DNA from: Anaerolineae bacterium | GTDB taxonomy: Bacteria > Chloroflexota > Anaerolineae > Anaerolineales > RBG-16-64-43 | Assembly: GCA_003141675.1 (NCBI GenBank) | Contig: PLND01000072.1 | Span: forward strand, 7,904 to 65,150 | Reading direction: 5' to 3' | Length of the DNA: 57,247 nucleotides | Part shown: in pieces, positions 33,953 through 49,743 of the stretch | How the letters are laid out: every line of letters begins with the position of its first letter | Numbering within the stretch: position 1 is the stretch's first letter | Program-made: the position numbers and the translations under genes | Notes under the pieces: model-generated | Told to the model about the DNA's origin: nothing | The model's database searches: none | What the model saw: only the letters and a program-made list of their open reading frames with translations

Positions 33953-33981
33953 AAAAATCACCCTCCGCAGGCAGAGGGTGA
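33953..33981 (-). terminator. Riboswitch-controlled terminator before thiamine operon
   Basis: On the minus strand TCACCCTC (33974-33981) pairs with GAGGGTGA (33958-33965) and runs into TTTTTATT only a few bases before the kinase ATG. Together with the aptamer immediately upstream it forms a transcription-attenuation riboswitch. Confidence 0.88.
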
Positions 33982-33989
33982 GGATTTGC

Positions 33990-34082
33990 AGCATCATCCC
34001 TTCGCCGGCATTATCCGGAGCAGGTTCTGCGGGTCGAAGGCTATGCGCCTTCCTCTCAGCCCGTGCACGGGCTCCCCGTTCA
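33990..34082 (-). ncRNA. TPP riboswitch (THI element)
   Basis: The minus strand shows the conserved THI-box order: GGGGAGCCCGTG, then GGGCTGAGAGG, a variable hairpin (AAGGC..GCCTT), then CGACCCGCAGAACCTG, CTCCGGATAATGCCGGCG and AAGGGATG. The CUGAGA and ACC.GAACCUGAUC-like blocks bind the pyrimidine and pyrophosphate of TPP. It is followed by a terminator and then the kinase-ThiB-ThiP-ThiQ genes, so TPP binding should switch the operon off. Confidence 0.95.
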
Positions 34083-34092
34083 TCCGCGGAAT

Positions 34093-44887: not shown

Positions 44888-45454
44888 TCATGAAATCTTC
44901 TTCTCCATCAGCCAGGCGGGTTCCGATACCTCCTGGCGCTTCCCCAGGTGGTCGATATAGGACCAGCAACCGGCATCTTCCGCAATGATGCGATAACCTT
45001 GCCGTTCGTAGAGGGAACGCGCATCGCGGTTGTCTTTCTCCACCCCAATCGACGCCGTATCCATTCCGCGTTGCCGTAAAATTTCTTCCGCTGCATCCAT
45101 CAACCGCGTGCCCAGACCGCGTCTTTGGAATGCGGGTTTTACCCGCAGGGAATACAGATAACCACGCCGCCGCCCGTCGGCAAAGCGCGGATCACTGCTG
45201 TTCCACTGGAGGAAGATCTGCCCGACGATTTCACCGCTTGGCCGGTGTTCCATCACCAGCAACAGCCTTGTCCCCATGCGCATATCCTCAAACGCCTGAA
45301 GAAACAGGTTGCGGAAATGGAGGAACTCACCGTTCCATTCCAAGGCTGGGAGGTCCCGCTCTTCCAATCGCCGGACGATGAATTCTTTTTCCGCAACTGT
45401 TCCGCCTTCGGCAATCCGGGGCGGAATCTGCATCTCATCCTGTATGGATGTCAT
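44888..45454 (-). CDS. GNAT family N-acetyltransferase
   Basis: This 188-residue protein contains the acetyl-CoA loop VKPAFQRRGLGTRLMDAAEEIL and the later DNRDARSLYERQGYRI, both diagnostic of GNAT enzymes. Substrate is unknown. The ATG overlaps the stop of the large DHH-CBS-PAP gene by four bases (ATGA). Confidence 0.88.
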   Translation of the reverse strand: MTSIQDEMQIPPRIAEGGTVAEKEFIVRRLEERDLPALEWNGEFLHFRNLFLQAFEDMRMGTRLLLVMEHRPSGEIVGQIFLQWNSSDPRFADGRRRGYLYSLRVKPAFQRRGLGTRLMDAAEEILRQRGMDTASIGVEKDNRDARSLYERQGYRIIAEDAGCWSYIDHLGKRQEVSEPAWLMEKKIS

Positions 45455-48084
45455 GATCCACTCCCGGTTTCCGGCCCCCGGACCGGCATTTCGGATAGAA
45501 GCTCATCGAGCATCCGCGTCTCCTCTTGGGCGGATCCAATCCGCCCGTCGAGCCGCGCGGCCCGTAGGGCGCGAAGAATCTCCCCATACCGCGGGCCGGG
45601 TGGAAGCCCGCGCCGTCGCAGCGTTTCACCATCGGTCTCAGGTTGAATGATCCGCCAGCGGGCAAGGTAATGGCTCAGCCGTTCGCGTGAAACGCCGGTC
45701 GAATTGACGTACGCTCCCACCAATGCCGGTTCGGGGATGTCTTCCAGTGTATCGGCGATCCGGCTGGGAGGTGCGTCTCCCGCCAGGCTGTCGAGCGCAT
45801 CGAGCGCCTGGCGCGCAACCAGGAGCAGTTCGGCATCACGGCGGGGAAAGTTCAGCCGTACGAGAACCCCTTCGAGCACTGGTTTCGGGTGATCCAGGAG
45901 CCACGCATTCATCGGGGAAGGAAGGCTCCGTCCGTCGGAGGCAAGGGCCCAAAACGGATCGGGGGTAAAGGCGCGTGCCGCACCGACGTGCTCCGCGTGC
46001 AATGAACTCCATTCCAGCCCCGGATAAATTCCACCCAGGACGTTTAATTCACGCAGGCGCCCAAGCGCATCTCCGGGTGTGGGCTCATCAAAGATCGCTT
46101 CCAATTCGTGCCGGATTCGGTCGCCGCTCACCCGGTGGAGGAGCGGCAACGCCAAGGCGATCAGATCGCGCGTGCGCGGTTCGATCCGGAAACCCAACCG
46201 TTGCTCCAAACGGACGGCCCGCAGGATCCGCGTCGGATCATCAATGAAGGAAATCGAATGCATCACCCGGATCTGTTTTTCCTCCAGATCGCGCAACCCT
46301 CCCCAGTAGTCATATACCTCGCCGAAGTGGGCCGTGTTGAGCGAAAGCGCGAGCGTGTTGATCGTGAAATCGCGCCGGTGCAGATCAAGCTTGAGGTTGC
46401 CGCGTTCCACTTCCGGAAGCGCCGATGGATGCGCATAGAACTCGGCCCGGGCAGAGACCAAATCCAGCGATTCCGGCATCGAAGCATCCTCAGCCGCAGG
46501 CAGACCAAGCGCCGCGGGGTCCACCTCCCGGAGAAGCCACTTCGCGGTTCCAAAGCGTTCGTGGCTGCGAACGCGCCCACCGTACTCGTCGGCCACGTCT
46601 AGCGCCAACGCGATCGCGTCGCCCTCCACAACCAGATCCAAATCATAGGAAGGAATCTTCAGTAGAAGATCGCGAACCACACCGCCCACCAAGTAGAGGG
46701 GGATGTGCTGCCGGTCTGCCACGGCGGCAACCGCATGGAGCAGGGCGAGCCGCGACGCGGGGAATCCATGTTCGAGCCGGTCCCTCAGATTGAGACGGCC
46801 CGCGGAAGGGCCCGGCGCGAGCGCCTTAAGCAGGTCGGTCCGGGTGACAATTCCCACCACGCGATCTCCTTCGGGGGAGACCACCGGGATTTGACCCCAT
46901 CCCCGATCCACCATCAACCGCTGCAAATGACTCACGGAATCCCCCAGCTGAACCGTCACCGACCCGCCTTCCATGACGCTTTCCACCTGTGCGTGCTGCA
47001 TGCCATGCGCCAGCGCCCGATCCACCGCCCTGCGAGTGAGCAATCCGACGACTTTGCCGTCCCGCACAACCGGAAAACCCTCGTACCCATAGCGGGCCAT
47101 CCGCTCCGCGGCATCGGCGATGGTCAGATTGGCTTCCACGACCTTGGGCCGCGGCGAATAAATTTGCGCCACCTGCATCGGCGGGGTGATGCTCGCGGGA
47201 AGCGCATCCAAGAGTTCCCGGCGGACTTCGTCGAGCGTGCGGCCCCGGATCAGCGCGGCGGCGGCGCGGTTATGCCCGCCACCGCCGAAACGTGCGGCGA
47301 TTTCCGAAACATCCAGATTGTCGGTGGCGGAACGCGCCACCAACTGGAGATGCGTACCGAGATCCACAACAACGAACAGGCCATCGGGCTCGAACAGGTC
47401 CCGCAATTTATGCGCGATGGTGGAAATCTCTTCGACGCCGGTGTCTGCGACGGCTTGCGCCAGTACAATCCGTTGCCCCTGGATAACGAGTGACTCCACG
47501 CTTTCCAGCAGCCGGTTATAGAGCTCGCGTTGTCCGGTCGAGAGCGGGCGGTTGAGGAATTCCGTCGTGAGCGCCAGACTGGCGTTTTGCTCCAGAAGCC
47601 ACGCCGCAGCCCGGACATCGCGCGGCGAGGTTCCGGCGTAGGAGAGCGAACCCGTATCCTCGTAAATCCCCAGGAGCATCAGGGTGGCCGCTTCCACCGT
47701 CAGCGGGTTGGAAAGAGTTTGTAGAGATTCGACCAGCAGGGTCGTCGCCGCGCCCACCATATCGATGGCGGAGGTCCATCCCGGCGGAAGCGGTTTGTGC
47801 AGCGGATGGTGGTCCACCACGTGGATGCGCGTGGCTTCGCCGACCCCGTGGACCGTCGGCATCGTCTGCGTATCGACCAATGTCACCCGGTCCACCCGGT
47901 CCCGCGGAAGATCCTCCAAGGCGTCCAGGGGAAGTTCCTCGCCGTAGAGCGTCAGGTAATCGCGCACGTTCCGGTTTATCCTGTGCGGAATCACGGCGCA
48001 CGAAGACGGTTCCAGCAGGCGAGCGGCCAGCAGGGAGGCCATCGCGTCGAAATCGGCCTGATCGTGCGTAAGAATCAGATGCAT
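45451..48084 (-). CDS. DHH phosphoesterase, tandem CBS and poly(A) polymerase/tRNA nucleotidyltransferase fusion
   Basis: This 877-residue fusion starts with a DHH nuclease domain (HDQADFDAMAS, the VVDHHP motif, DHHA1 glycine stretch ARFGGGGHNRAAAAL) over about 1-310. Two CBS domains (about 315-445) follow. The class II nucleotidyltransferase head (LYLVGGVVRDLLLKIPSYDLDLVVEGD, about 465-600, with RRDFTINTLALSL) and RNA-binding arm end the protein. The design is known in several thermophiles and deep branches as a CCA/A-adding enzyme. Such fusions may repair and proof-read tRNA 3' ends with nucleotide sensing through CBS. It is coupled to GNAT. Confidence 0.9.
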   Translation of the reverse strand: MHLILTHDQADFDAMASLLAARLLEPSSCAVIPHRINRNVRDYLTLYGEELPLDALEDLPRDRVDRVTLVDTQTMPTVHGVGEATRIHVVDHHPLHKPLPPGWTSAIDMVGAATTLLVESLQTLSNPLTVEAATLMLLGIYEDTGSLSYAGTSPRDVRAAAWLLEQNASLALTTEFLNRPLSTGQRELYNRLLESVESLVIQGQRIVLAQAVADTGVEEISTIAHKLRDLFEPDGLFVVVDLGTHLQLVARSATDNLDVSEIAARFGGGGHNRAAAALIRGRTLDEVRRELLDALPASITPPMQVAQIYSPRPKVVEANLTIADAAERMARYGYEGFPVVRDGKVVGLLTRRAVDRALAHGMQHAQVESVMEGGSVTVQLGDSVSHLQRLMVDRGWGQIPVVSPEGDRVVGIVTRTDLLKALAPGPSAGRLNLRDRLEHGFPASRLALLHAVAAVADRQHIPLYLVGGVVRDLLLKIPSYDLDLVVEGDAIALALDVADEYGGRVRSHERFGTAKWLLREVDPAALGLPAAEDASMPESLDLVSARAEFYAHPSALPEVERGNLKLDLHRRDFTINTLALSLNTAHFGEVYDYWGGLRDLEEKQIRVMHSISFIDDPTRILRAVRLEQRLGFRIEPRTRDLIALALPLLHRVSGDRIRHELEAIFDEPTPGDALGRLRELNVLGGIYPGLEWSSLHAEHVGAARAFTPDPFWALASDGRSLPSPMNAWLLDHPKPVLEGVLVRLNFPRRDAELLLVARQALDALDSLAGDAPPSRIADTLEDIPEPALVGAYVNSTGVSRERLSHYLARWRIIQPETDGETLRRRGLPPGPRYGEILRALRAARLDGRIGSAQEETRMLDELLSEMPVRGPETGSGS

Positions 48085-48445: not shown

Positions 48446-49450
48446 ATGACGATTGAATTCCTCCGTGATATCGATACCTGGAGCCGAATGGAATCGGAAT
48501 GGAACGCCTTGCTCGCCCGCAGCACGGCGAATTACCCCTTCCTCCGGTATGAATTTCAACGCGCCTGGTGGGAACATCTCGGGGGCGGGGAATGGCCGTC
48601 GGGGGAACTTCGAATCGCCGCTTGGAGGGAGGACGGCGTTCTGCGCGGGGTCGCTCCGCTCTTTCAAAGCACGCGCGGGGGGGAAATGCGATGGTATTTT
48701 ATCGGCAGCGTGGAAATATCCGACTACCTGGATGTGATTGTAGAAGGCGAACATCATTCCGCTTTTTGCACGGCGTTGCTCGACGCGCTCGGATCTCTGC
48801 CGGATTCGGAATTTCGCGTGTTGGATCTCTTTAATTTGCGCACAGCCTCGCCCACCGCATCCATATTGGAAGCCGGCGCCGGGCGCCGAGGCTGGAAGGT
48901 AGACCGCGAAACGCTCCAGATCTGCCCCGTTCTGGCTCTGCCGGAATCCTGGGAGGAATATCTCGCGGCGTTGGATAAAAAGGATCGCCATGAAATCCGT
49001 CGCAAGCTGCGCCGCAGCGAGGGTTCGGAAGAACCGATGGAATTAAAACTCGCCGACGCCGGCGCGATGGAGGATTTTTTCTCCTTGATGGCAGCCGATA
49101 AAAATAAGGCCGGTTTCCTTACGCCGGCTATGCGCGATCAATTCCGGTCCATCGCCCGGTCGATGGAAGCGGCGGGTTTGCTTCAGCTTGCGTTTCTGCA
49201 GGCGCAAGGGCGCAACGTTGCCGCATTTTTCAATTTCGATTACGGCAACCGAATCTGGGTCTACAACTCCGGCATGGATCCGCAATATGCCGCCTCCTCG
49301 CCCGGCTGGATCCTGCTGGCTTTGCTGGTCCGGCGCGCCATCGAGCAGGGGCGGGAGGCGTTCGATTTCATGCGCGGCAGCGAATCGTATAAATTCCAAT
49401 GGGGCGGGGTGGGCGAACAAATTCACCGCTTGACGATTCGAAAAGTTTGA
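48446..49450 (+). CDS. FemAB/BioF2-like acetyltransferase (GNAT fold)
   Basis: This 334-residue protein starts at 48446 with GGGAG upstream. It contains GELRIAAWREDGVLRGVAPLF and the later RIWVYNSGMDPQYAASSPGWI, then a helical REAFDFMRGSESYKFQWG. The last pattern (D.mrG.e.yK..w) is typical of the CelD/BioF2-like N-acyltransferases, which attach acyl or amino acid groups to cell-surface molecules or amino-sugars. The first half has a separate GNAT-like fold. Substrate unknown. Confidence 0.75.
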   Translation: MTIEFLRDIDTWSRMESEWNALLARSTANYPFLRYEFQRAWWEHLGGGEWPSGELRIAAWREDGVLRGVAPLFQSTRGGEMRWYFIGSVEISDYLDVIVEGEHHSAFCTALLDALGSLPDSEFRVLDLFNLRTASPTASILEAGAGRRGWKVDRETLQICPVLALPESWEEYLAALDKKDRHEIRRKLRRSEGSEEPMELKLADAGAMEDFFSLMAADKNKAGFLTPAMRDQFRSIARSMEAAGLLQLAFLQAQGRNVAAFFNFDYGNRIWVYNSGMDPQYAASSPGWILLALLVRRAIEQGREAFDFMRGSESYKFQWGGVGEQIHRLTIRKV

Positions 49451-49743
49451 CCGTTGCAATATGCAATCTGATTTTTGATTGAACTCAATCCGTTTTAGAA
49501 TGAAAACCGATATTCATTTGTAGATTGGAAGGTAATTTCGTTTTATACTTGCGATAATCCCAATTAGTATTGGTTACAAAATTGATCAATTTGCTCTTTC
49601 TCCGGTTGTGGATAACTGACCAAAAAATGTGGAAAACCGGGGAAAAACAGCCGATATTTGTAGAAAAAGCTTCCTTTTTTGTGGATAAACCTTTGGAAAA
49701 ACAAGTCTTTTTAGTGGAGAAATACTGGATAGATTGTGGATTA
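49451..49743 (+). other. Candidate replication-origin-like DnaA-box array
   Basis: The gap is AT-rich, clearly more than the surroundings, and holds DnaA-type boxes all in one orientation. Perfect TGTGGATAA occurs at 49607-49615 and 49680-49688, TGTGGAAAA at 49628-49636 and TGTGGATTA at 49735-49743. Weaker ones are TGTAGAAAA (49659) and AGTGGAGAA (49713). Start-to-start distances of 21, 31, 21, 33 and 22 bases are close to multiples of a helical turn. The left part (49451-49606) could be a DNA-unwinding element. No dnaA is present in the window. Confidence 0.6.

Follow-up and report, generated by a model that had tools for sequence, protein, structure and literature searches.

Clusters of DnaA boxes that lie outside the replication origin have been described in several bacteria, and they offer the closest parallels for the locus considered here. 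In Bacillus subtilis and Streptomyces, such clusters restrain initiation (PMC5295017, PMC5742627), and their removal causes early initiation (PMC5295017). According to one review, the B. subtilis clusters, six in number and described as oriC-proximal, contribute only modestly to the control of initiation (PMC5295017). The datA locus of Escherichia coli is a DnaA-box cluster in non-coding DNA outside oriC whose essential boxes all share one direction, an arrangement that the review authors read as head-to-tail ATP-DnaA (PMC5742627). datA is reported to be crossed by tRNA read-through transcription (PMC10950094). The locus also needs an IHF site that bends the DNA between its boxes. DARS1 and DARS2 of E. 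coli are intergenic box clusters as well, which change the nucleotide state of DnaA and have a core in which box I is opposite to boxes II and III (PMC5742627). Recent work supports titration on the E. coli chromosome (PMC12371093). The literature searches made for this analysis found nothing on DnaA control in the Anaerolineae.

The DNA analyzed here, referred to as the window, is a stretch of 57,247 nucleotides from a draft Anaerolineales genome of 105 contigs (G000, family f1). It contains an array of DnaA boxes between two convergent genes, with the features given below. Offsets are counted in bases from the start of box 1, and G001 and G003 are relatives from the same family.

48449 to 49450, plus strand: FemAB-like/GNAT gene (PF13480), the convergent neighbor in G000, G001 and G003
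49451 to 49606, no strand: AT-rich gap, 32.7% GC, from the FemAB-like stop to box 1
49607 to 49615, plus strand: DnaA box 1, TGTGGATAA, perfect; offset 0, kept in G003 and G001
49628 to 49636, plus strand: DnaA box 2, TGTGGAAAA, one mismatch; step of 21, at an equal offset in G003 and G001
49638 to 49646, plus strand: half-site, CGGGGAAAA, offset 31; two mismatches with A/T free at position 7
49659 to 49667, plus strand: weak DnaA box 3, TGTAGAAAA, two mismatches; offset 52
49680 to 49688, plus strand: DnaA box 4, TGTGGATAA, perfect; offset 73
49692 to 49700, plus strand: half-site, TTTGGAAAA, offset 85
49713 to 49721, plus strand: weak DnaA box 5, AGTGGAGAA, two mismatches; offset 106
49735 to 49743, plus strand: DnaA box 6, TGTGGATTA, one mismatch; offset 128, overlapping the bPH_5 stop codon
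49741 to 50649, minus strand: bPH_5 membrane-protein gene (PF10882, E=4.6e-10), the conserved neighbor of the array

The original prediction had described six boxes on one strand (two perfect, two with one mismatch and two weaker) in steps of 21, 31, 21, 33 and 22 bases, and all of this was confirmed. It had not included the additional half-sites at offsets 31, 85 and 117, which are roughly in helical phase. Its claim that the array does not arise by chance also held, because the observed box count and grouping were never reached in shuffled sequences. When a box was defined by one mismatch with A/T free at position 7, none of 5,000 local dinucleotide shuffles reached six same-strand boxes in 137 bp (maximum 3), and 60 shuffles of the whole window likewise gave a maximum of 3. 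The window as a whole holds 18 matches at no more than one mismatch, compared with 6.07 expected, a count reached by 0 of 100 shuffles. Throughout the genome, two copies of TTWTCCACA spaced 8-16 bp apart occur at only two places, which are the array and the dnaA locus.

Comparison with relatives indicates that it is the boxes that have been kept. The steps of 21, 31 and 21 recur in G003, whereas G001 keeps the boxes at offsets 0, 21 and 73 and has a degenerate third box. At offset 52 the sequence in G003 is TGTAGATAA, and at offset 73 its box has two mismatches. Both relatives carry GGGAAAA at offset 31, which matches the position of the half-site in the window. Identity is 83-92% in box columns versus 46% in other columns. 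With a search that used the neighboring bPH_5 protein, the array was found to follow this gene in four families (f1, f4, f7 and f8). In 17 genomes of f1, f4 and f7, the 2,890 bp after bPH_5 contain 46 sense and 0 antisense boxes, against a background at the same loci of 6 sense and 7 antisense boxes in 60,206 bp, and 22 of 29 steps measure 21-22 bp; since these genomes were picked from families in which boxes had already been seen, the counts gauge strength and orientation rather than family frequency. In f8, all six genomes with a located bPH_5 gene (G036, G048, G059, G077, G085 and G093) have the array, there of only two or three boxes. A similar array exists in G024, where the search did not locate bPH_5. 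The loci examined in f2, f3, f9, f10 and f13 have no boxes at one mismatch or fewer after bPH_5.

These properties can be set against the described systems. The array shares with datA its position outside oriC, its non-coding setting and the single direction of its boxes, and differs in the spacing of its boxes by two or three helical turns. With such spacing, same-facing boxes would line up DnaA protomers along a single face of the helix, which head-to-tail oligomers require. A three-box core with a reversed box I, as in DARS, is absent, with all boxes after bPH_5 facing one way. Like the clusters of B. subtilis and Streptomyces (DBC-type), the array is a conserved cluster outside the origin. 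Unlike the oriC-proximal B. subtilis clusters, it is a single array tied to one gene, and in the f1 relatives it is apparently not close to oriC. No known structured RNA was found at the locus at Rfam gathering thresholds, nor any tRNA family, in contrast to the tRNA read-through at datA. Elsewhere in the window, a TPP riboswitch (RF00059, 62 bits) lies at 33981-34088 on the minus strand.

The original prediction had also considered an origin possible. An origin, or a second origin, at the array would agree with the AT-rich segment that borders the boxes in G000 and G001. The AT-rich segment that the original prediction reported is certainly present in the window (32.7% GC, compared with 35% in the array and 57.9% in the window overall), but it is not conserved, being missing in G003, G002, G004 and f8. 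Similarly, dnaA is indeed absent from the window but not from the genome, where it is located on contig C49 with a DnaA-box cluster of its own. That cluster, like the array, includes a TTATCCACA pair 21 bp apart; unlike the array, it spreads boxes of both orientations across about 300-400 bp, sits at dnaA and coincides with the turn of the skew in relatives.

The skew evidence is largely unfavorable to an origin at the array. Cumulative GC skew on a contig of about 130 kb in G001 (C15) forms a clear V, a descent of 70 kb and an ascent of 50 kb meeting at the dnaA cluster, and on contig C45 of G003 the minimum is at dnaA, about 5 kb from the contig end. At the array in the window, G003 and G001, the skew stops falling, as might be expected of an origin, but over the 8-14 kb available it is flat on the other side rather than rising. 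The three contigs concerned (G001:C129, G003:C6 and G000:C65) each end 8-14 kb past the array on the same side, and Rfam found no rRNA in their examined parts. Over flanks of 1.5 kb, an origin-sense skew change occurs at all four dnaA clusters tested (G000, G001, G002 and G018), but a positive change occurs at only 8 of 17 bPH_5-linked arrays; around the other clusters in f4 and f7, skew likewise covered 1.5 kb on each side. The closed genome G059 shows no turn at the array, where its skew continues to fall, although the skew of this genome is disordered, and neither G059 nor G014 gave a clean single turn in sampled whole-genome skew. Skew at third codon positions, split by gene strand, was too noisy to be informative.

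Thus, the array has the box cluster of an oriC and has neither the cumulative skew minimum, which in the close relatives assessed lies next to dnaA (an outcome that the original prediction had named as refuting it), nor a conserved AT-rich unwinding element beside its boxes. The origin of family f1 is at dnaA, which for the genome analyzed is based on the C49 cluster and on relatives. In neither G001 (128 kb and 55 kb covered) nor G003 (201 kb covered) does the dnaA contig carry the array, which puts it more than 128 kb from oriC on one side and more than 201 kb on the other if these genomes are collinear there. On this evidence, an origin at the array is very unlikely, and the oriC part of the original prediction is set aside.

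Origins distant from dnaA do occur in the order, which lends the idea of an origin at the array some general plausibility. In two f13 genomes with nearly whole-chromosome contigs (G324 and G312), the skew turns at arrays that are separated from dnaA by about 300 kb (G324:C1, about 2,120,894-2,122,000; G312:C1, about 326,600). A deoxynucleoside-kinase-like gene and a nucleotidyltransferase-like gene, named by eye from sequence, are found near the array in both. In many f13 genomes the contig with this pair also holds another two-turn pair, about 20-35 kb away, for instance at G324:C1:2,146,885 and similarly in G063, G296, G029, G088, G284 and G262. Several genera of f11 (G110, G117, G039, G078, G051 and G086) share a conserved box pair near TGTTGATAACTNCTGATTTTCTGTGGATAA. 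Two matches to the DnaA C-terminal domain were noted in G115 (C196 and C64), where a second dnaA or contamination is possible.

Because box clusters are linked to dnaA in f1, f3 and f15 and lie far from it in f13, origins have moved within the order. The array could in principle be the relic of a former origin, left without present function after such a move. This is highly improbable in view of boxes that are far better kept than the intervening bases and that persist in four families, including genomes in which no DUF92 gene was detected. The same retention implies selection on the boxes. In a DnaA tree f4 is outermost, followed by f1 and then by f7, f8 and the rest, and midpoint rooting puts f3, f10 and f15 on the opposite side. 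Judging from this tree, the array may date back to the common ancestor of f4, f1, f7 and f8, with losses elsewhere.

The gene context provides further clues. A tie to the FemAB-like gene was considered and rejected, the conserved link being with bPH_5. The array begins at the bPH_5 stop, or no more than about 75 bp from it, in every array-bearing family, always reading TTATCCACA on the bPH_5 sense strand, whereas the gene downstream of it varies. A DUF92 gene starts directly after the array in f8 and in several f4 and f7 genomes, and in f8 the boxes occupy the short gap between bPH_5 and DUF92. A search of 13 genomes detected no DUF92 in nine (G000, G001, G003, G099, G083, G115, G047, G035 and G058), an absence that is by search only in genomes of which several are drafts (completeness 80-99.7%). 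All nine keep the bPH_5-linked array, which was therefore rejected as an operator of DUF92 and is not kept for that gene. One gene at 45451-48084 on the minus strand of the window combines DHH, CBS and poly(A)-polymerase domains.

The constant association with bPH_5 makes a role in the expression of this gene the chief rival explanation, and it is retained because the array never leaves bPH_5 in these families. DnaA bound at the 3' end of the gene would block RNA polymerase, so as to form the transcript end or stop read-through, and would couple expression to the level of DnaA. Schaefer and Messer reportedly found that DnaA-box complexes of E. coli can block RNA polymerase in one orientation. 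The fixed orientation of the boxes and their nearness to the stop codon are in keeping with this, as is the convergent gap of the window, in which neither promoter-like nor terminator-like sites, including an intrinsic terminator, were found. Against it, the downstream gene varies and DUF92 is undetected in the nine array-keeping genomes, and in f8 a block in the gap would silence DUF92. Two-turn box pairs also occur elsewhere in families that lack the bPH_5 array, and an element that acts independently of position can stay linked to a gene merely by nearness to its stop codon. Overall, transcriptional control of bPH_5 seems unlikely, if a serious contender.

The reading favored here, with a probability of about 60%, is that the array is an extra-origin DnaA-box cluster that controls the availability or activity of DnaA. 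The proposal of a DnaA-titration site away from dnaA is strengthened by the conservation of boxes and spacing; DnaA binding at the array, formation of an oligomer and an effect on initiation are each steps that we infer. DnaA would bind head-to-tail at the strong boxes, which are spaced by two or three helical turns, and protomers held on one face of the DNA would then occupy the weak sites that are in phase. An oligomer formed in this way might remove free DnaA by titration or stimulate its ATP hydrolysis, as at datA. Lowered free or ATP-bound DnaA would in turn restrain re-initiation at the true origin at dnaA. The invariable position after one gene counts against this control of DnaA, as it would also fit a role in bPH_5 transcription. 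So do the box-free loci examined in f2, f3, f9, f10 and f13, the low number of boxes in f8 and the modest role assigned to the B. subtilis clusters.

Additional box clusters accompany the array in some families. Each of the seven f7 genomes examined carries, besides the bPH_5 array, a single further two-turn box-pair cluster. Among the f8 genomes, a second exact pair lies about 105 kb from the array in G085, and a pair with one mismatch lies about 111 kb away in G036. It is also conceivable, although doubtful, that the array is a putative lineage-wide equivalent of datA in the Chloroflexota, in which same-facing, phased boxes would replace bending by IHF and the oligomer would switch DnaA off.

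The restraint of initiation is little known in bacteria beyond the enterics and Bacillus. Prediction of origins should take into account that, in this order, they can sit about 300 kb from dnaA. An array that has stayed stable across families whose bPH_5 proteins are only about 30% identical provides a concrete locus to delete or footprint.
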